This document shows, piece after piece, positions 1,126-46,566 of a stretch of 64,000 nt of DNA. The notes beneath the pieces are model-generated. The model was not told where the DNA came from. It worked only from the letters and a program-made list of their open reading frames with translations, and did no database searches. The position numbers and the translations under genes are program-made. Every line of letters begins with the position of its first letter. Position 1 is the first letter of the stretch. Origin of the DNA: Alphaproteobacteria bacterium bin52 (GTDB lineage Bacteria > Pseudomonadota > Alphaproteobacteria > Thalassobaculales > Thalassobaculaceae); contig MPMT01000006.1 of assembly GCA_002238645.1 (NCBI GenBank), forward strand, positions 1 to 64,000, given 5' to 3'.

Positions 1126-1939
1126 TTACACTCCTACTTGCCAGACAATGGGATATTGAGTGATCTCCAGCGGATCGCTGTCGAAGAGTTCCGGATTGCG
1201 CAGTCCGGCGCTGGGTCCCGGACCGGCAAAGTAGCGGCACTCCTCGCCGCAATGGCGCACCGCATAGCCGTGCCGACGCGTCCCCTCGGTCAGGTTGCCC
1301 CCGGCGCCGTGAATGGTCAGGGCATGGAAGGCGAGCACGTCGCCCGGGTCCATGTCCCAGCCGACGATCCGGTAACGGTCGCGCCGGCTGTCGATGTCGG
1401 GCATCGGCTCGTAACCTTCGCCGGCCTCGTAGGCCGACGTGCCCTCGGCAAAGGGCTCCGGCTGGAACCAGCGGCCCCACAGGTGGGACCCGGCAACGAA
1501 TTCGAGCCCGCCGCTCTCACGGATCACCGGATCCAACGGGATCCAGATCGACATCACCGGCCAGCCCCTCACCGGCCGGTACGGTTGGTCGTTGTGCCAC
1601 CGGGTCGGTTGCGGGGTTGTCGGTTCCTTCACGAACAGCTGGTCGTAGAACAGCGTCAGCGCACGGTCTCCCAGCAGGTCGCCCGCCACGGTGCGGTGCG
1701 GACCGTGGAGGCAGAATTGCCGAAACCCGTCATCGTTCTCCCAGACCCGCAGGTTGCCGTGAAAGTAACCGGCCTCGGACCGGTACACGTTGAATGAAGA
1801 GCCTCGGGTCGGCGATGTCCCGTTCCACGGCCGCCTCGAGTTCGCCGCGCCAGTCAGCGTCGACAACGTCGCGCACCATCACCACACCGTCCTGTTCGAA
1901 TGCCCGGCGCTGCTCTCCGGCCACACGGAAACCCGCCAT
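1126..1939 (-). pseudogene. Phytanoyl-CoA dioxygenase (PhyH) family gene with a frameshift
   Basis: Two overlapping minus-strand frames together make one Fe(II)/2-oxoglutarate dioxygenase of the PhyH family. The N-terminal half starts at the ATG at 1937-1939 (MAGFRVAGEQRRAFEQDG...) and runs to about 1795. The rest continues in another frame (FNVYRSEAGYFHGNLRVWE...) to the stop at 1126. The C-terminal frame carries the HxD iron motif (RWHNDQPYR) and the distal His in FHALTIHGAGG. The total span of 814 bases is one base over a multiple of three, so a single-base insertion near 1790-1795 (CTCTTCATTCAACG) explains it. This is either a real inactivation or an assembly error. It sits 5 nt ahead of the SMP-30 gene. 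Confidence 0.8.
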
Positions 1940-2109
1940 CGACGTCTCCCGTCCTTTCCCTCGCCAGCGTAGTGCCGCCCGTCAGCGCGGCGCAAGTCCG
2001 CGGGCCGGGTGCCGCGGCTTGTTCCGGTTCGGCTGTTCGCGATAGGATGATGTGGAATCACGCCGGAAACGGCGCGATCACCGGTCCGTCGGACCGGAAA
2101 CCTGTATGG

Positions 2110-2187
2110 CTCGGGGTGCCGCACCGCACAGTGTGCGGCTGAGAGCACACTCGTTGAACCTGAACTGGGTAATTCCAGCGCAGGGAG
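2110..2187 (+). promoter_or_regulatory. TPP riboswitch (THI element)
   Basis: The aptamer is almost letter-for-letter the classic thi box: CTCGGGGTGCC at 2110-2120, CTGAGA at 2139-2144, and GAACCTGAACTGGGTAATTC with CCAGCGCAGGGA through 2187. The 3' strand of the aptamer contains the GGGAGG that serves as the Shine-Dalgarno sequence of thiO (start 2198). Binding of thiamine pyrophosphate is therefore expected to hide the ribosome site and shut off the thiOSGE operon at translation. That mode is inferred from this overlap. No separate terminator hairpin is visible between the aptamer and the start codon. Confidence 0.95.
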
Positions 2188-2197
2188 GCCGCACGTC

Positions 2198-3369
2198 ATG
2201 TCTGTCCACTTCGCCGGTTCGCGTTCCCGCGACCGGCCGCGCGTTGCCATCATCGGGGCCGGTGTGTCCGGTCTGGGGATCGGGTGGCGGCTGGGAGCCG
2301 CAGGGTGCACGGTCGACCTGTTCGAGCGCAACTTTGCCGGCGGCGGGGCCAGCTGGGCGGCCGCGGGCATGCTTGCCGCCGGCGTCGAGGCCGAACCCGG
2401 CGAGGAGTCCCTGTTCCGGCTGAACCGGATGGCGCAGCAACTGTGGCCGGAGTTCAGGACCGAACTCGAGGCCGAGAGCAGGCGCGACATCGGTTACCGG
2501 GACGACGGAACACTGGTTGTTGCCTCGACCCGGGATGATCTCGAACAGCTGCGCCATGTCACCGCCTTCCAGACGGGCATCGGAGTCGAACTCGAGTGGC
2601 TCACCGCCGCCGAGGCGCGCCGAAGGGAGCCTTACCTGAAGTCCGGCCTGGCGGGTGCCGTGTTTTCGCCGCATGACCACCAGGTCGACAACCGCAGGCT
2701 GGCGATGGCGCTGAAGGATGCCGCGCTTGCGCGCGGCTGCAGGCTGCACGAAACCCGGAACGTCGATGCCGTGGACCTCGAGGCCGGCCGGTTGCGGGGC
2801 ATCGTGGTCAATGGAGAACGCCACCGGGCCGACATCGTGATCAATGCGGCCGGAGCCTGGGCAAACCGGATTGACGGGGTCCCCGAGTTGTGCCGACCAC
2901 CGGTCCGCCCGGTCAAGGGCCAGATGGCGGCGCTCAGGATGGACCGGAACCATCCGATCGCGACACGTGTCATCTGGGGGCCGAACACCTACTTGGCGCC
3001 CAAGGCCGACGGACGGCTTCTGGTCGGCGCCACGGTCGAGGAACGCGGGTTCGACGACGATCTGACCGCGGGCGGCATCATGGCGGTGATCGAGGCGGCG
3101 TGGCGCGTCCTGCCGGGGATCGAGGAATTGCCGGTTGACGAGCTCTGGGCGGGATTCCGCCCGACAAGCCGTGACGACGCCCCCGTTCTGGGGACAAGCA
3201 GGCTCGATGGCCTGCTGCTGGCAACCGGTCATCACCGCAACGGCATCCTTCTTGCTCCGGTCACCGCCAACCTGCTTGCCGAGCTGGTGCTCACCGGCAG
3301 GACCGACCCGGCCATCGACGCCTTCGGGCTTGACCGGTTCCACCACGTCAGCCATGCGGGAGCGGCCTC

Positions 3370-40117: not shown

Positions 40118-40351
40118 TGTGACCGGCTCAACCAATCTCGACGATCCTGCCGGTTCAGTGGGGCCGACTTGCCTGGCCCGACGTCCTTCAAGTGACCGCC
40201 GCCGGGGCCAGTGTCCTGTCTCCCGTGCCATACCGGGACCCTTCCGCGGGGAACGCCCGGGAGGAGCCCAGCGTCAGCTGTCATCACCGAACGGAACCTG
40301 GCCACCGCCTGTCGGCAGACACTGCGACTGTGACCACAGGCCCGGGACGCA

Positions 40352-40900
40352 GTGCCGTTTGGTTCCCGCGCGCGCGGAACGCAGCGACCCGTTAGCGACT
40401 GGGGCATCGCCATCGTGCTCAAGGGCAACACGCTTCGTCATCCGGACCCGGCGAGATCGGTGTTTCCGCAACAACAGATGGCAGTCGATCTGCCGCACTT
40501 CGATGTCCGGGCGCTGTTCGAGGATGATCCGCAGCACCGCGTCTGTGCCCTCGGCTCCCTCCCCCACGTCATCTGCCGCGACGGCGGGGTACTCGCAGGT
40601 GACTGGAAAAGACCGGACCCAGCGCGAACGGAACGGGATGCCGCCATTCTGCCGATCGGGAAAGTACTGTGGAGACCGCTCCGGACTGGCAGCGACAGGA
40701 AATGCTCCCACCTGTTGCGAAACACCGCTGACGCCGCCCTGTCGCTGGTCAAGGCGACGATGGAGCGGCGTGGCTCGCCCGCCGACCGTAGCCATGACAT
40801 CGCCCGACTAGCCGCCGCCTTCGCCGCGCACCGGCCCGACGAAGGTGCACTGGCGGAGCGGATGGCGGTTCCGAACGGCAGCAGCCGCGTCCATCAGTGA
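40352..40900 (+). CDS. Hypothetical protein in the decayed region
   Basis: An open frame of up to 182 codons (GTG at 40352; other in-frame starts at 40415 and 40478). From about residue 20 the composition is protein-like, with hydrophobic/charged alternation (FDVRALFEDDPQHRVCALG, LRNTADAALSLVKATMERRG). The stop overlaps the GTG of the next small frame as GTGA, which supports real coding. Against this, an antisense frame over the same bases has equally coding-like statistics, and I recognise no family. It may be an intact accessory gene or part of an older one. Confidence 0.3.
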   Translation: MPFGSRARGTQRPVSDWGIAIVLKGNTLRHPDPARSVFPQQQMAVDLPHFDVRALFEDDPQHRVCALGSLPHVICRDGGVLAGDWKRPDPARTERDAAILPIGKVLWRPLRTGSDRKCSHLLRNTADAALSLVKATMERRGSPADRSHDIARLAAAFAAHRPDEGALAERMAVPNGSSRVHQ

Positions 40901-41058: not shown

Positions 41059-41270
41059 CCCGATCTCACGAGCACACTGGCGAAACCCCAAGGCTGACGA
41101 GGGGCATCCGGCTCAAGCTGCGGCACAAACCGCGTTGGCGCGCCGGACGGGGCTGGCTTAGGCCATCGCGTCGTTCCGCAACAGGGTACGCCGGATGGTG
41201 GACGATTGGCCGGTCCCGACGCCGTTCGACGACATGTCGTGATGGACAGCGGTGTCGCGCCGGAATCGCC

Positions 41271-41435
41271 TCAGAAGCCGTAACGCATCGAGACGACGGT
41301 TTTCGTCTCCTCGGTATCCGCGGCCCTGACCCCGCTGATGGTGGCCTCGGCCCTCGCGTGGTTGACGCCGAGATTGTCACGGGCGGAGAGAAACCAGACC
41401 AAAGGGCGGAGCAAGATACTGCCACCACGGTCGTG
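41271..41435 (-). pseudogene. C-terminal fragment of a beta-barrel outer-membrane protein
   Basis: The minus-strand frame reads ...VWFLSARDNLGVNHARAEAT... and ends TEETKTVVSMRYGF then TGA (41271-41273). Alternating residues and a terminal aromatic Phe preceded by Y-G are the signature of the last strand of Gram-negative beta-barrels recognised by BamA. No start codon or upstream barrel strands remain: the frame loses similarity by about 41435. A truncated tail; whether it came from a TonB receptor or porin is unknown. Confidence 0.4.
41375..41394 (+). repeat. Left copy of a 20-bp direct repeat flanking the three-gene operon
   Basis: TGTCACGGGCGGAGAGAAAC here and TGTCAAGGGCGGAGAGAAAC at 44937-44956 match at 19 of 20 bases in the same orientation, 3.56 kb apart. 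Between them lie the ankyrin/IstB chimera and the intact secreted-protein operon. They could mark ends of an inserted segment, or be chance similarity in GC-rich DNA. Confidence 0.4.
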
Positions 41436-41542: not shown

Positions 41543-41869
41543 TCAGCCCGTGGGGGCCGTTTTGCGCGCGTGGCTGTGGTTGAGGCGGAAGCTCTCGCCG
41601 TTCATTTCCAGGATATGGACATGATGGGTGAGACGGTCGAGCAGATCCGCTCCAGTCCGCCCCCGTTCGAGCAGAATGTCCATCATTTTCCACTTCCCGC
41701 CGCCGATGGCCTCGTGAAGTGATGTGGCCGCATCGGTTGATGATTGGGCGTTGACGTCTGCGCCAGCGTCGAGCCCCACGGCGCGCATTCGGTCGGCGAG
41801 TTTGCGGGTGCGGCCGGGGTCGAGCTCAACGTTGAGGAAACGCCGGATCTCGGCGGGTCGGGCGGCCAA
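41543..41869 (-). pseudogene. Chimeric remnant: ankyrin-repeat piece joined to the IstB C-terminus (IS21 family)
   Basis: One open frame contains two unrelated parts. Residues about 35-70 are an ankyrin repeat (GADVNAQSSTDAATSLHEAI followed by MMDILLERG). From about 41650 to the stop at 41543 it reads ADLLDRLTHHVHILEMNGES plus FRLNHS, the conserved C-terminal end of the IS21 helper ATPase IstB. No IstB P-loop or IstA is present. The junction sits at TGADLLDRL. It looks like the scar of an IS21 element lost after inserting in or beside an ankyrin gene. The only start is a TTG. Confidence 0.65.
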
Positions 41870-42003: not shown

Positions 42004-42981
42004 GTGGACCCCTTCGTTCGTGCCGGAGCGCTCCTCCTGGTTTGCATTGCCTGGTCCGGTGAGCCGCAGCAGGCGTTGGCGGGTTCTTGTGACACGGTGC
42101 ATACGGTGACGGTGTCTCCTGAGGAGTACATGGAAGGTGTCTCGCTGACGGACCTGATGTCGCATCTGATCTCGACCGGACGGCGGATGGCCGTCGAGCA
42201 GGTAACGACGACGCGGGTCCTGAGCGCGAGCAGCGAGACAATTCACGATGACGACGTGGACTTTCGTTCCCATAGCTCAGAACGAGTTGTCGGTACGGTC
42301 AACTCCCACAAGGTTGTCGCTCGGGAGTTCGGGAAGATCGGCACCCGGGAAACGCTCCGCGTCACGCTACAGGTGGACGTTTGCGTGGGTCCGGCAGACC
42401 AGATCTGGTACGTCCGAATCGACGACCTGGTATCGGAGACGAAGGGAGATCTCGCGTGGATGAAGTCACGCCTGAAGAGCCCGACGGACAGAATCCAGTT
42501 GGTGCGCCCGGGAGAGCTGGGCGCAGAACATGCGCCGTACCGGATCGAGGGGCTCGCGTTTTCGGAGAAGGCCTCGGTTCACAGCTTTACCAATGACGAT
42601 CAGATACGCCGGTATGACCAGTGTGTCCAGACAAGGCGCTCGCAAGCCCAGACCCAGATGCAATTCCTGAACTCGTTTGGCCTAGGAAACTTCGGCTCGG
42701 TTGTGCGAGGTGCGGGTGACCCCTCGCGGGCCTGCGGGGACCGTCCTCGGCACACCAGAGGAAATAGACTGGAAGCGGAAGCGGTATTCGAGATCAAGAT
42801 CTGCGACACCCATATTGGAAATTGTCAGGTCGTTCGTCAGCGTCATGACTCCCGGACTATCGTAAGGACGAAGGAGGATGCAGAAGTCGCACATCGTCAG
42901 TTCTATCACGAAGGGTTCGGTTTCGTGGGAGCGATTGCTCTCCACACCCTTCAGCGGTCTCTGGGAATGCTCGACAGGTGA
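42004..42981 (+). CDS. Secreted protein of unknown function, first gene of a three-gene operon
   Basis: 325 residues. GTG start at 42004 behind GGGAGGAAG, then a Sec signal peptide (VRAGALLLVCIAWSGEPQQALA). The mature protein has a helix (LMSHLISTGRRMAVEQV), then long alternating beta stretches (SERVVGTVNSHKVVAREFG; ETLRVTLQVDVCVG), and six or more cysteines, so disulfides in the periplasm are likely. Helix 'A..A..qv' followed by strands with 'G.V.s..vv.e' and 'v.v.VDV' resembles FlgT/LPP20-type domains; that is inference. Base composition is more AT-rich than neighbours. The stop overlaps gene 2 by 4 nt (GTGA). Confidence 0.8.
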   Translation: MDPFVRAGALLLVCIAWSGEPQQALAGSCDTVHTVTVSPEEYMEGVSLTDLMSHLISTGRRMAVEQVTTTRVLSASSETIHDDDVDFRSHSSERVVGTVNSHKVVAREFGKIGTRETLRVTLQVDVCVGPADQIWYVRIDDLVSETKGDLAWMKSRLKSPTDRIQLVRPGELGAEHAPYRIEGLAFSEKASVHSFTNDDQIRRYDQCVQTRRSQAQTQMQFLNSFGLGNFGSVVRGAGDPSRACGDRPRHTRGNRLEAEAVFEIKICDTHIGNCQVVRQRHDSRTIVRTKEDAEVAHRQFYHEGFGFVGAIALHTLQRSLGMLDR

Positions 42982-43418
42982 GGGCAATCGTCGCGCTTCT
43001 GGCTCTGGTCGGAGCGAGCCCGCTTCATGCCGAGCAGTCCGGGGTTCTGCCGGCTCTGGAGGTGCAGAACTGCGCCGCCGGAGTCGACTACCACGTTCGC
43101 ATCAGGCTTCCCGCGGGGCCGCCGCTGGCGGTACAGATGCGTCGCGCGCGAAGTCAGGCGGTCCGGACGTTGACTCGACACATCTTTGGATCGGCAACGG
43201 CAAGCGTCGTTGCCGCGGAGTCCCGGGAAGGCGAGGAGATGGCGGTCAGCATCCGGCGCTTCGAGCGGACCGATGGTCTCTTTCGGGGCATGGTCCACCG
43301 GGGTAGCAGTGAGGGTGACTCGGGATTGGAATTCGCGTTTTCACTGTCCTTCCTGAACGAGCTTTCGGCTGTCGTACATGACCTCGTATGTGGACACGAA
43401 TTGAGGGAGACCCAATGA
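42978..43418 (+). CDS. Small secreted protein of unknown function, second gene of the operon
   Basis: 146 residues starting at a GTG overlapping the previous stop. A signal peptide is clear (RAIVALLALVGASPLHAEQ). A short mature protein follows with one Cys near the start (VQNCAAG) and one near the end (VCGHE), a helix MRRARSQAVRTLTRHIFG and then strands (MAVSIRRFERTDGLFRGMV, GLEFAFSLSFLNEL). The helix-then-strands order repeats that of gene 1 in miniature. No known family recognised. Its stop overlaps gene 3 as ATGA. Confidence 0.75.
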   Translation: MRAIVALLALVGASPLHAEQSGVLPALEVQNCAAGVDYHVRIRLPAGPPLAVQMRRARSQAVRTLTRHIFGSATASVVAAESREGEEMAVSIRRFERTDGLFRGMVHRGSSEGDSGLEFAFSLSFLNELSAVVHDLVCGHELRETQ

Positions 43419-44719
43419 ACAGCATAGTCAGAACCGCCTTGACTGCATGCCTTGTCACCCTCGCATGGGCGGTTGCGGCGTCTGGGGCCGGCGATGTCGG
43501 GAATCAGCATGTCGGAATGTACAGCCCTGGCCTGATTGCCGATTGGGAGAGAAGCCTTGGCGATAAGGGTCTTGTCCAGGGAGCGAACGAGCGCGACATA
43601 TACGTCGCGGTCGGACGAAATGCGGTGGAATTTCCGCCGGGCCATCCGGGGTTTCACGAGGCAAGGAGCGTTGCCTACGATATCGCGTATCTTCGGGCCA
43701 AGACGGAGCTCGTGAGGTTTCTCGGTGCGTCGATCGAGCAGAGCAACTCGTACGAAGCACTCGAGAACGCACAATGGTCGGACGGTCAAGGGGAGGCCCT
43801 GGAGCGGCTGAAGCAGGCGGACCGGATCTCGAGGAAGCTAAACGACCTTGAGGAAGCGAAGCTGGATCAGGAGCTTGCCAGTATCGACCCGGAATACGAT
43901 CCGGATCGGTACGGAAGCCGGGAAGAGAAGGAAAAGGCCTTCCGTGGCGCGTTCCAACGCCAGATTCGAGAAGTCGCGTCCAGCCACGTATCCGGAGCCC
44001 TTCCCCTTGAGGTGTTGGAGGGGCCGGTAGAAGACGGGAACTCGTACGAAATCTTGGTCGGACTGGTATGGAGTCCACGGCTGGAGCTTGCGGCTCGGGC
44101 CGTTTCCGGGGGCTACGCTCCTGCCCGCGCGGACGTGGCTGGGTTACGGATCGCGGACTGGTTGCCGAAAGAGGCGGATTTGCTCTCTGCGAGCTGGGGC
44201 GTTCACAAGATGATTGACGAGAACGGAGATCAGGTTTTTGTAGGATTTGGGCAGGCCGCACCCCGAAAGACCTCGGCATCTCGCCGGAGCCGGGCGGAGG
44301 AGGTGGCGCTCCGGCGCGCGGAGCTTCGCGCCAGGGGAGCCATCCGGGGGTTTGTCGGCGAGGTCGTAAGATCGGAAAGGTCGGAGGAGGGCGAGGAGAT
44401 CGCCATCGAGTACGCCGATGCAGCGGTCAGCGGGGCGATCGGCAGTACGTTTCTCGAGAAGCTGGAATCGAACGCGAAGGCCCTGACGATCACGGGTCTC
44501 ACGGTTGTCGGTCAGTGGATCCTGGCGCATTCTGCTGACAAGCAGCGGGTGGCGGTGGTGGCGGTGTCCTGGTCTCCGAGTGGCCTGGGCACGGCAAATC
44601 GGGTACGCGATGCGATGCTCGCCCCGGACAAGGCATCCTCGGCAAGACCGGACCCGAAGTCCGAAAAAGCGGATCCGAAATTGCTGCAGAAGGAAAACGT
44701 CAAGGTCAGGGACTTGTAG
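43415..44719 (+). CDS. Secreted two-domain protein of unknown function, third gene of the operon
   Basis: 434 residues with a signal peptide (ALTACLVTLAWAVAASGAG). Two similar domains: the first runs from DIYVAVGRNAVEF through a helix AYDIAYLRAKTELVRFLG to ILVGLVWSP. The second runs from QVFVGFGQAAP through EVALRRAELRARGAIRGFVG to VAVVAVSWSP. Between them is a charged coiled-coil-like stretch (RLKQADRISRKLNDLEEAKL), and the C-terminus is Lys/Asp-rich. The 'vG.g.A......A...A...l..fvG' pattern recalls LPP20/FlgT/SIMPL-like periplasmic domains. I cannot name a family. ATG overlaps the stop of gene 2. Confidence 0.8.
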   Translation: MNSIVRTALTACLVTLAWAVAASGAGDVGNQHVGMYSPGLIADWERSLGDKGLVQGANERDIYVAVGRNAVEFPPGHPGFHEARSVAYDIAYLRAKTELVRFLGASIEQSNSYEALENAQWSDGQGEALERLKQADRISRKLNDLEEAKLDQELASIDPEYDPDRYGSREEKEKAFRGAFQRQIREVASSHVSGALPLEVLEGPVEDGNSYEILVGLVWSPRLELAARAVSGGYAPARADVAGLRIADWLPKEADLLSASWGVHKMIDENGDQVFVGFGQAAPRKTSASRRSRAEEVALRRAELRARGAIRGFVGEVVRSERSEEGEEIAIEYADAAVSGAIGSTFLEKLESNAKALTITGLTVVGQWILAHSADKQRVAVVAVSWSPSGLGTANRVRDAMLAPDKASSARPDPKSEKADPKLLQKENVKVRDL

Positions 44720-45159
44720 CCCCGGCACCAGGGCGGACCCCTGCTCGGGGCCTTCTCGCCGCCTGACAGGCAGTTGACGCTGATACTGGACTTCCCCTCC
44801 GTGCCCTGATTCTGCCGCCGTGAAGCAATCACCAATGTGCGATGCACCCACCCCGCCGACTCCCCTGACCACCGATAGCTTCCGATGACAGGACCATCGT
44901 TGAAAGCAGGACGATGGCGCGGATCACCGCACCGGGTGTCAAGGGCGGAGAGAAACTGGAGATTCGCCTCTGACCGTTTATCCGTCGCAGGAGACGTCGC
45001 GCACGAAACGTGGGCGATACTCGTTGCCCCAGCTCGCAGGAGCGCGAGGACGAGTTCGGCAGTGGCTTGTTCGGAGGAAGCGAGGTCAGGCCGTGGACGG
45101 TCTCGTGCCGTTCCTCGCCGGTCTTGCGGATCCCCCGGCGACGTCGACCCTCCGCCGGA
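44720..45159. other. Gap between the secreted-protein operon and the amidase, with the right direct repeat
   Basis: About 440 bases without a recognisable gene. Shortly after the operon stop, 44729-44756 has GC-rich runs that may form a weak terminator. The right copy of the 20-bp repeat is at 44937-44956. Frames here are short or shadow-like. Confidence 0.5.
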
Positions 45160-46566
45160 TCACCAGTCCGGTGGATGCATCCTGTGCCATTCGGTCGCGG
45201 ATTCAAACGCCGCTCCGGCCCGAATCAGCAACGGCTCGGACAACCGGTGGCCAACCAGCTGCACGGAGAGCGGCAGTTCCGAGCGACCCAGTCCGCACGG
45301 CATCGCGATGGTCGGCAGGCCGGCGTAGTCCATCGGAACCGTATAGCGGGAATCCCACGCCCGGCGCTCCGGGGAAATCGGACCGTAGGCCGCACTCGGG
45401 GGATAGGGGATTGCGGCCTGCGGCGTGGACGGGCACAGAAGCAGGTCCGTATCGGCCATTGTCCGGGCAAGCGCTCCGTTGCACTCGAGCCGCAGCTGGT
45501 GCGCCGCCGCGTAGTCTGCAGCACTGTATTGCGAACCCCGATCGAGCCATTCTCCGAACCAGGCGCCATACTCGTCGCGGCGTGCGGGCCAGAAGTCCCG
45601 GTGAGCATGGACCGCCTCGACCGAGCACAGGACCTGCCACCCCTCGAGATAGCGTTCGAGTCCTTCCGGCATCGCCACCTCGACGATGACGGCTCCGAGA
45701 CCCCGCAGGACCTCAAGGCTCGCCATCACCGCATCCGCAAAGTCCGGCGCCAGGTCAGCAAGACCATAGGTCGCATCCCATCCGATCCGTATTCCCTCGA
45801 TGCCGCGGGAGATCCCGGAGAGCATGTCGGGAACCGGGTCGGAAACGGCGGTCGGATCGAGTGGATCGGGACCCGCAATTGCCTCGAGCACAATCCCGGC
45901 ATCCGCCGCGCACCGCGCCAGTGGACCGACGTGGTCGAGCGAAGGCGCCAGATCGAGAACGCCGAACCGGCTCACGCGGCCCCAGGTCGGTTTCACTCCC
46001 ACCGTGCCACACACTGCGGCCGGATGACGGATCGAACCGCCGGTATCGCTGCCGAGCGTCGCGTAGGCGAGTCCCGCTGCGGTGGCGGCCCCGGACCCGC
46101 TTGACGATGCCCCTGGCCAGAACCCCTTGCGCCACGGGTTTTCGGGTACGGTAAAGCCGGGATTATAGCCGGCCATTGCACCTTCGGTGAGGGCCAGCTT
46201 GCCGAGAATGACCGCTCCGGCATCGCGCAGACGCGCAACAACCGTCGAATCGGTCCCGGGCACCCGGTCTGCCATGACGGCGCAGCCACCCGACGTGATC
46301 GTGCCGGAGGTATCGCAAAGGTCCTTTACCGCAACCGGGATGCCGTGCAGCCGTCCCCTGTTGCGACCGGCAGCAAGTTCGGCCTCGGCACGCCGCGCGT
46401 CTTCAAGCGCCTCCTCTGCCATGACGGTCTGGTAGGAGTGCAGCGTCGAATCGAATGCCTCGATGCGCTCCAGCATCATCGTGGCGAGTTCGACCGGCGA
46501 GATCTCGCGCGCGCGGACCAGGTCCGAGACCTCAACGATTGTCCGATAGTGCAAGGGTTCGTCCAT
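45160..46566 (-). CDS. Amidase (amidase-signature family)
   Basis: 468-residue amidase-signature hydrolase with the Ser-cisSer-Lys triad. The Lys is in GIPVAVKDLCDTSG near residue 80. The Ser pair lies in the Gly/Ser-rich block GASSSGSGAATAAGLAYATLGSDTGGSIRHPAAVCG (cis-Ser in GASSSGSG, nucleophile in TGGSIR). CGTVGVKPTWGRVS and the C-terminal YTVPMDYAGLPTIAMPCG are typical. Not GatA-like in context. It sits 15 nt from the tail of a peptide-ABC permease, so it may once have been in an operon importing amides or peptides. Confidence 0.92.
   Translation of the reverse strand: MDEPLHYRTIVEVSDLVRAREISPVELATMMLERIEAFDSTLHSYQTVMAEEALEDARRAEAELAAGRNRGRLHGIPVAVKDLCDTSGTITSGGCAVMADRVPGTDSTVVARLRDAGAVILGKLALTEGAMAGYNPGFTVPENPWRKGFWPGASSSGSGAATAAGLAYATLGSDTGGSIRHPAAVCGTVGVKPTWGRVSRFGVLDLAPSLDHVGPLARCAADAGIVLEAIAGPDPLDPTAVSDPVPDMLSGISRGIEGIRIGWDATYGLADLAPDFADAVMASLEVLRGLGAVIVEVAMPEGLERYLEGWQVLCSVEAVHAHRDFWPARRDEYGAWFGEWLDRGSQYSAADYAAAHQLRLECNGALARTMADTDLLLCPSTPQAAIPYPPSAAYGPISPERRAWDSRYTVPMDYAGLPTIAMPCGLGRSELPLSVQLVGHRLSEPLLIRAGAAFESATEWHRMHPPDW

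Follow-up and report, generated by a model that had tools for sequence, protein, structure and literature searches.

The three-gene operon at positions 42004-44719 of the window (the whole 64,000-nucleotide stretch analysed) encodes three exported proteins, the third of which is, to judge from its sequence, a divergent homologue of DUF6844, a known family with a solved structure and no characterised function, which includes FTT_1539c of Francisella. As a variant of the setting in which genes of this family usually occur, the operon has genes for two exported orphans, and no COG3014 or CsgG partner was detected. The explanation we favour, with roughly even confidence, is that this is an acquired operon, flanked by IS21-type ends, for an envelope complex in which a DUF6844 subunit would be joined by the products of genes 1 and 2, orphan partners that replace the canonical ones.

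The three genes are packed on the forward strand. Gene 1 (42004..42981, 325 aa) has a GTG start after GGAGGAAG; gene 2 (42978..43418, 146 aa) also starts with GTG, within a GTGA overlap with gene 1; and gene 3 (43415..44719, 434 aa) has an ATG start behind GGGAG, within an ATGA overlap with gene 2. At both junctions the overlap of start and stop codon spans 4 nt. These frames, lengths, overlaps and coordinates are those given in the first-pass annotation, and its call of a signal peptide in each protein also stands: the N-terminus is the most hydrophobic 10-residue stretch in all three, followed by plausible signal-peptidase sites, read by eye as ALA/GS, LHA/EQ and ASG/AG. The operon is more AT-rich than its neighbours, as had been noticed, with a GC content of 0.61-0.63 compared with about 0.67 around it, and a GC3 of 0.70-0.72 compared with 0.75-0.82 in four neighbour genes. 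Of 400 shuffled sequences, few yielded an open reading frame to match gene 1 (6) or gene 3 (1) in length. Most (329) yielded one of the length of gene 2, and what speaks for gene 2 as a coding gene is therefore its overlaps, its signal peptide and its GC content by codon position (0.71/0.49/0.71). A promoter scan found none. Phage, defence and toxin readings were dropped, there being no evidence of any kind for them; defence-system models gave no match.

Protein 3 had been left unassigned, a description that no longer applies. Gene 3 on its own matches FTT_1539c (PDB 4QVR) over residues 69-400 (phmmer, 1.5e-12), and a family profile made of gene 3 and seven homologous rows matches the same structure at full length (7.7e-45), the one solved protein matched in this way. 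The Pfam model DUF6844 (PF20891), which covers a 97-aa stretch, is matched at E 1.9e-5 and 25.2 bits, under the gathering cut-off of 27, which is a score threshold and not a biological feature; we therefore speak of a divergent homologue and not of a Pfam-certified member. The Entotheonella homologue, which lies inside a canonical module, also falls under this cut-off, at 26.4 bits. The closest relative found for gene 3 is encoded by a Candidatus Entotheonella MAG (OY282375.1) and is 68% identical over residues 27-434, compared with 25% identity to the SAR116 homologue from the same bacterial family. When genome contigs were scanned with gene 3 as a single sequence nothing was returned, and an alignment-based scan returned two loci.

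Gene 3 and its homologues can be aligned over their entire length, with invariant residues dispersed along it. Within the family the two halves are themselves homologous (hhalign P 7.1e-6, eight family members); the two-unit repeat is a family trait and not peculiar to gene 3. The first unit of gene 3 (43586..44104, forward strand, residues 58-230) carries the DUF6844-like stretch at residues 137-221, and the second (44177..44596, forward strand, residues 255-394) ends in VAVSWSP. Like gene 3, FTT_1539c and the DUF6844 proteins are exported, have two repeat units with conserved WSP-type ends, and contain a D-x-x-G...GQ stretch; gene 3 differs in forming a divergent branch together with the Entotheonella homologue.

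Elsewhere, homologues of gene 3 belong to a conserved four-gene module; for genes 1 and 2 the gene-order survey suggested by the first-pass annotation had no homologues to draw on. In four genomes (our L015, L016, L017 and L018) the DUF6844 gene takes third place in a group of four, in the order COG3014-like lipoprotein, LpoB, DUF6844 and CsgG/FlgT-type protein. Partners were assigned with Pfam for the proteins tested, and the name COG3014-like was given from the sequence, the five copies being mutually alignable. The order at the Entotheonella locus (L022) is COG3014-like, LpoB (3e-35), a PIN pair, DUF6844 and CsgG-like. The PIN-domain gene and its small partner, inserted there between LpoB and DUF6844 (L022:7048-7702), have a GC content of 0.53-0.57 compared with about 0.60-0.67 over most of the surrounding sequence. 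A natural DUF6844-CsgG fusion (L007:3-2111) adjoins an LpoB gene and supports a physical association of DUF6844 and CsgG proteins. In SAR116 AG-355-O21, two tandem DUF6844-type genes (L006:3-1060, 1532-3028) follow a CsgG/FlgT_C gene, and a 398-aa exported protein that has no family match is encoded nearby.

In Francisella, the gene for FTT_1539c is part of a predicted operon of four genes, FTT1537c-FTT1540c (PMC4696196), and the protein is recognised by sera of mice given outer-membrane vesicles (PMC10963506). Among PDB proteins, the profile built from the CsgG/FlgT partners extends to TsaP-type LysM proteins, which belong to type IV pilus machinery. Taken together, the gene neighbourhood, the Francisella operon and sera, and the TsaP match suggest an outer-membrane role. 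The literature searched held no described function for the COG3014-LpoB-DUF6844-CsgG module.

The window shares with the canonical module (L015-L018, L022 and Francisella) a DUF6844 gene that stands beside other genes for exported proteins on one strand. It differs in having neither a COG3014-like nor a CsgG gene and in the two orphans that precede gene 3. The SAR116 locus, which comes from the same bacterial family, is similar in that a DUF6844-type gene is part of a run of genes for exported proteins and no COG3014 gene was found; unlike the window, it retains the CsgG/FlgT_C gene, and its 398-aa protein has no detectable relation to gene 1. At the operon itself a CsgG/FlgT-type gene beside gene 3 is absent, and genes 1 and 2 have no convincing sequence relation to CsgG. 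The genome (G000) gave no match to CsgG and none to the COG3014-like profile, the same profile that finds its positive control in Entotheonella (G775). Since the genome-wide search covered CsgG and COG3014, and the genome is 96.75% complete, a partner may still be encoded at another locus or have dropped out of the assembly.

By sequence, genes 1 and 2 are orphans. Relatives of gene 1 were found neither in its own genome, 36 genomes of the bacterial family, 385 genomes of the class or the Entotheonella genome, nor among plasmids, viral contigs and PDB sequences. Searches for gene 2 in plasmids, viral contigs, PDB sequences, the Entotheonella locus and a segment of a genome of the same genus (G001) likewise returned none. 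Gene 1 has no Pfam match to CsgG or to FlgT_N/M/C, with hhalign at noise, and neither gene matches LpoB (PF13036). Two Pfam matches, Adeno_PVIII for gene 1 (0.0065, below the cut-off) and DUF7885 for gene 2 (0.12), were judged to be due to chance.

The first-pass annotation had likened all three proteins to LPP20, FlgT or SIMPL domains. Pfam gave no sign of direct membership: its models for LPP20, FlgT and SIMPL match none of proteins 1, 2 and 3, and those for LPP20 and SIMPL none of the eight members of the gene 3 family. A connection with CsgG/FlgT-type envelope proteins does receive indirect support, from the operons in which CsgG/FlgT_C and LpoB genes accompany homologues of protein 3. FlgT, CsgG and LPP20 (the polar-flagellum H ring, the curli channel and Lpp20) are envelope proteins, as the products of the operon would be, and the models for CsgG, LpoB and FlgT_C recognise the partners encoded beside homologues of gene 3; proteins 1-3 differ in matching none of these models by sequence.

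The operon is enclosed by remnants of mobile DNA. On the left, the flank at 41101..41376 is 77% aligned to the same-genus genome, homology stops at 41376, and over its final ~95 nt the flank corresponds to the 3´ end of a porin-like gene, intact in that genome, of which the window retains only this tail. A 20-nt IS21-type terminus (TGTCACGGGCGGAGAGAAAC, 41375..41394, forward strand) starts at this synteny breakpoint, and a second copy in the same orientation (TGTCAAGGGCGGAGAGAAAC, 44937..44956) lies 3562 bp away. The copies are identical at 19 of 20 positions, and such a pair occurred in 0 of 60 shuffles. Between the first copy and gene 1, a decayed reading frame on the reverse strand (41543..41869) combines the C-terminal end of IstB, the IS21 helper ATPase (PF01695, E 4.7e-6, profile positions 211-236 of 238), with a weak ankyrin-like stretch. 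The decayed istB DNA has matches in 262 plasmid records, and most among the matches listed are annotated istB. Annotated IS21 elements of alphaproteobacterial plasmids have the same layout of ends beside istB (for example TGTCAATGGCGGAGTAAAAC). The terminal pair, the 3´ end of istB and the plasmid layout together place the operon between two IS21-type ends, and give substance to the decayed mobile DNA that had been reported on both flanks.

On the right, synteny with the same-genus genome resumes at 45135, with 89% identity from there on, in a flank (45135..46566, reverse strand) that includes an amidase gene (45160-46566, reverse strand, PF01425). At the same site that genome has instead a 342-aa porin-like gene and a 460-aa PAP2/vanadium-haloperoxidase-like gene (L035:6042-8457); the name porin-like was given from the sequence, Pfam being silent. 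With this alternative content, the stretch from a nucleotidyltransferase remnant to the amidase gene is a variable locus. The remnant, at 40119-40900 of the window, is a degenerate, frame-broken sequence of the minimal-nucleotidyltransferase type (GSRARGTQRPVSDWGI); its counterpart in the same-genus genome is one 326-aa open reading frame, and both genomes hold many partial copies. The window contains no tRNA that could have served as a tRNA-type attachment site.

Apparently, the operon was acquired horizontally. Carriers of the gene 3 family are rare (2 of 36 genomes of the bacterial family and 2 of 385 sampled genomes of the class), and we infer acquisition from this rarity together with the greater identity of gene 3 to a homologue from another phylum than to that of SAR116, the IS21-type ends and the different genes in the same-genus genome. 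The view of the first-pass annotation that three co-translated exported proteins are encoded in an accessory segment flanked by mobile DNA is supported.

In the model we prefer, the operon would encode a protein complex of the envelope, in the periplasm or on the outer-membrane side, and gene 3 would supply its DUF6844/FTT_1539c-type subunit, with two tandem copies of the unit. Other bacteria produce this subunit alongside a COG3014-like lipoprotein, an LpoB-like lipoprotein and a CsgG/FlgT-type protein. In this operon, translation of genes 1 and 2 comes just before that of gene 3, through the coupled overlaps, and their products would most likely be partners that replace the CsgG/FlgT and lipoprotein subunits. 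The complex would probably act as an outer-membrane-associated assembly or scaffolding factor, such as an organiser of a ring or channel, or a regulator of a peptidoglycan synthase. Because relatives of genes 1 and 2 were not found, it is the overlapping reading frames that argue for their association with gene 3, and coupled translation makes a putative partnership of the three proteins likely. A more specific version, which we consider unlikely, is that genes 1 and 2 are new exported families that took the places of the lipoprotein and CsgG-type partners in a minimal, mobile form, with three proteins, of a widespread and uncharacterised outer-membrane module, brought by IS21 elements into an alphaproteobacterium from an Entotheonella-related donor.

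It is also possible, if somewhat unlikely, that genes 1 and 2 are the known partners diverged beyond sequence recognition, which would make the operon an ordinary, fast-evolving member of the canonical module. Gene 1 would then be a two-domain CsgG/FlgT-like protein, with a small N-terminal domain followed by a CsgG/LptE-like alpha/beta domain, and gene 2 a single LPP20/FlgT_N-like domain. The predicted topology of the C-terminal half of gene 1 (residues 153-298, pLDDT about 50-82), a long strand, a helix, two long strands and a helix, would fit this, as would its best structural matches, LptE (Z 6-7.6) and CsgG (4uv2, Z 5.5), and the presence of Lpp20 (5ok8, Z 3.1) among the weak, non-specific matches of gene 2. 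However, these models were predicted from single sequences with low confidence (mean pLDDT 49 and 58 for genes 1 and 2), all of the scores fall in the range that the comparison tool calls non-specific, and actin capping protein and SecB come out at a similar rank. In profile alignments with the CsgG and LpoB partners gene 1 scored no better than shuffled sequence, and gene 2 stayed at noise level apart from a marginal and uninformative score with CsgG (22.6 compared with 19.5 in 20 shuffles, probability 3%). An LptE/CsgG-like fold in the C-terminal half of the gene 1 model is a lead, and we treat it as a hint.

That the three genes are neighbours by chance seems improbable to us. Gene 3 would in that case have been transferred singly and have landed behind unrelated, lineage-specific genes for exported proteins, with the overlaps reflecting a compact genome. 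Genes 1 and 2 are orphans and are absent from the Entotheonella locus, where the DUF6844 gene is already parted from LpoB by a PIN-domain gene, and the site varies between the two genomes of the genus, all of which would be expected of such an event. Both junctions are nevertheless 4-nt overlaps, all three proteins carry export signals, base composition is similar throughout, and one pair of IS21-type ends encloses the three genes. The proposal of the first-pass annotation, that the three proteins are paralogues with one fold that form a hetero-complex, is the one we find very hard to sustain. It drew on a common structural theme, and the part of it that concerns protein 3, the unit present twice, is real; an Ala-rich helix followed by strands can also be made out by eye in genes 1 and 2. 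Yet profile comparisons between genes 1 and 2, and of each with either half of gene 3, stayed at noise level, leaving no convincing sequence relation between any two of the three proteins, and the models of genes 1 and 2, though of low confidence, are unlike each other.

The preferred reading, an acquired envelope operon with orphan partners, bears on a family for which there is a solved structure and a conserved neighbourhood of LpoB and CsgG/FlgT genes, with no described function found in the literature searched. If the three genes are a reduced module, they would be a compact system in which to study interactions and structures. Should genes 1 and 2 instead prove to be CsgG/FlgT-like, they would illustrate how rapidly partners can diverge beyond recognition. 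A reduced module with two new exported proteins, if that is what the operon is, would show which parts of the DUF6844 module are dispensable.
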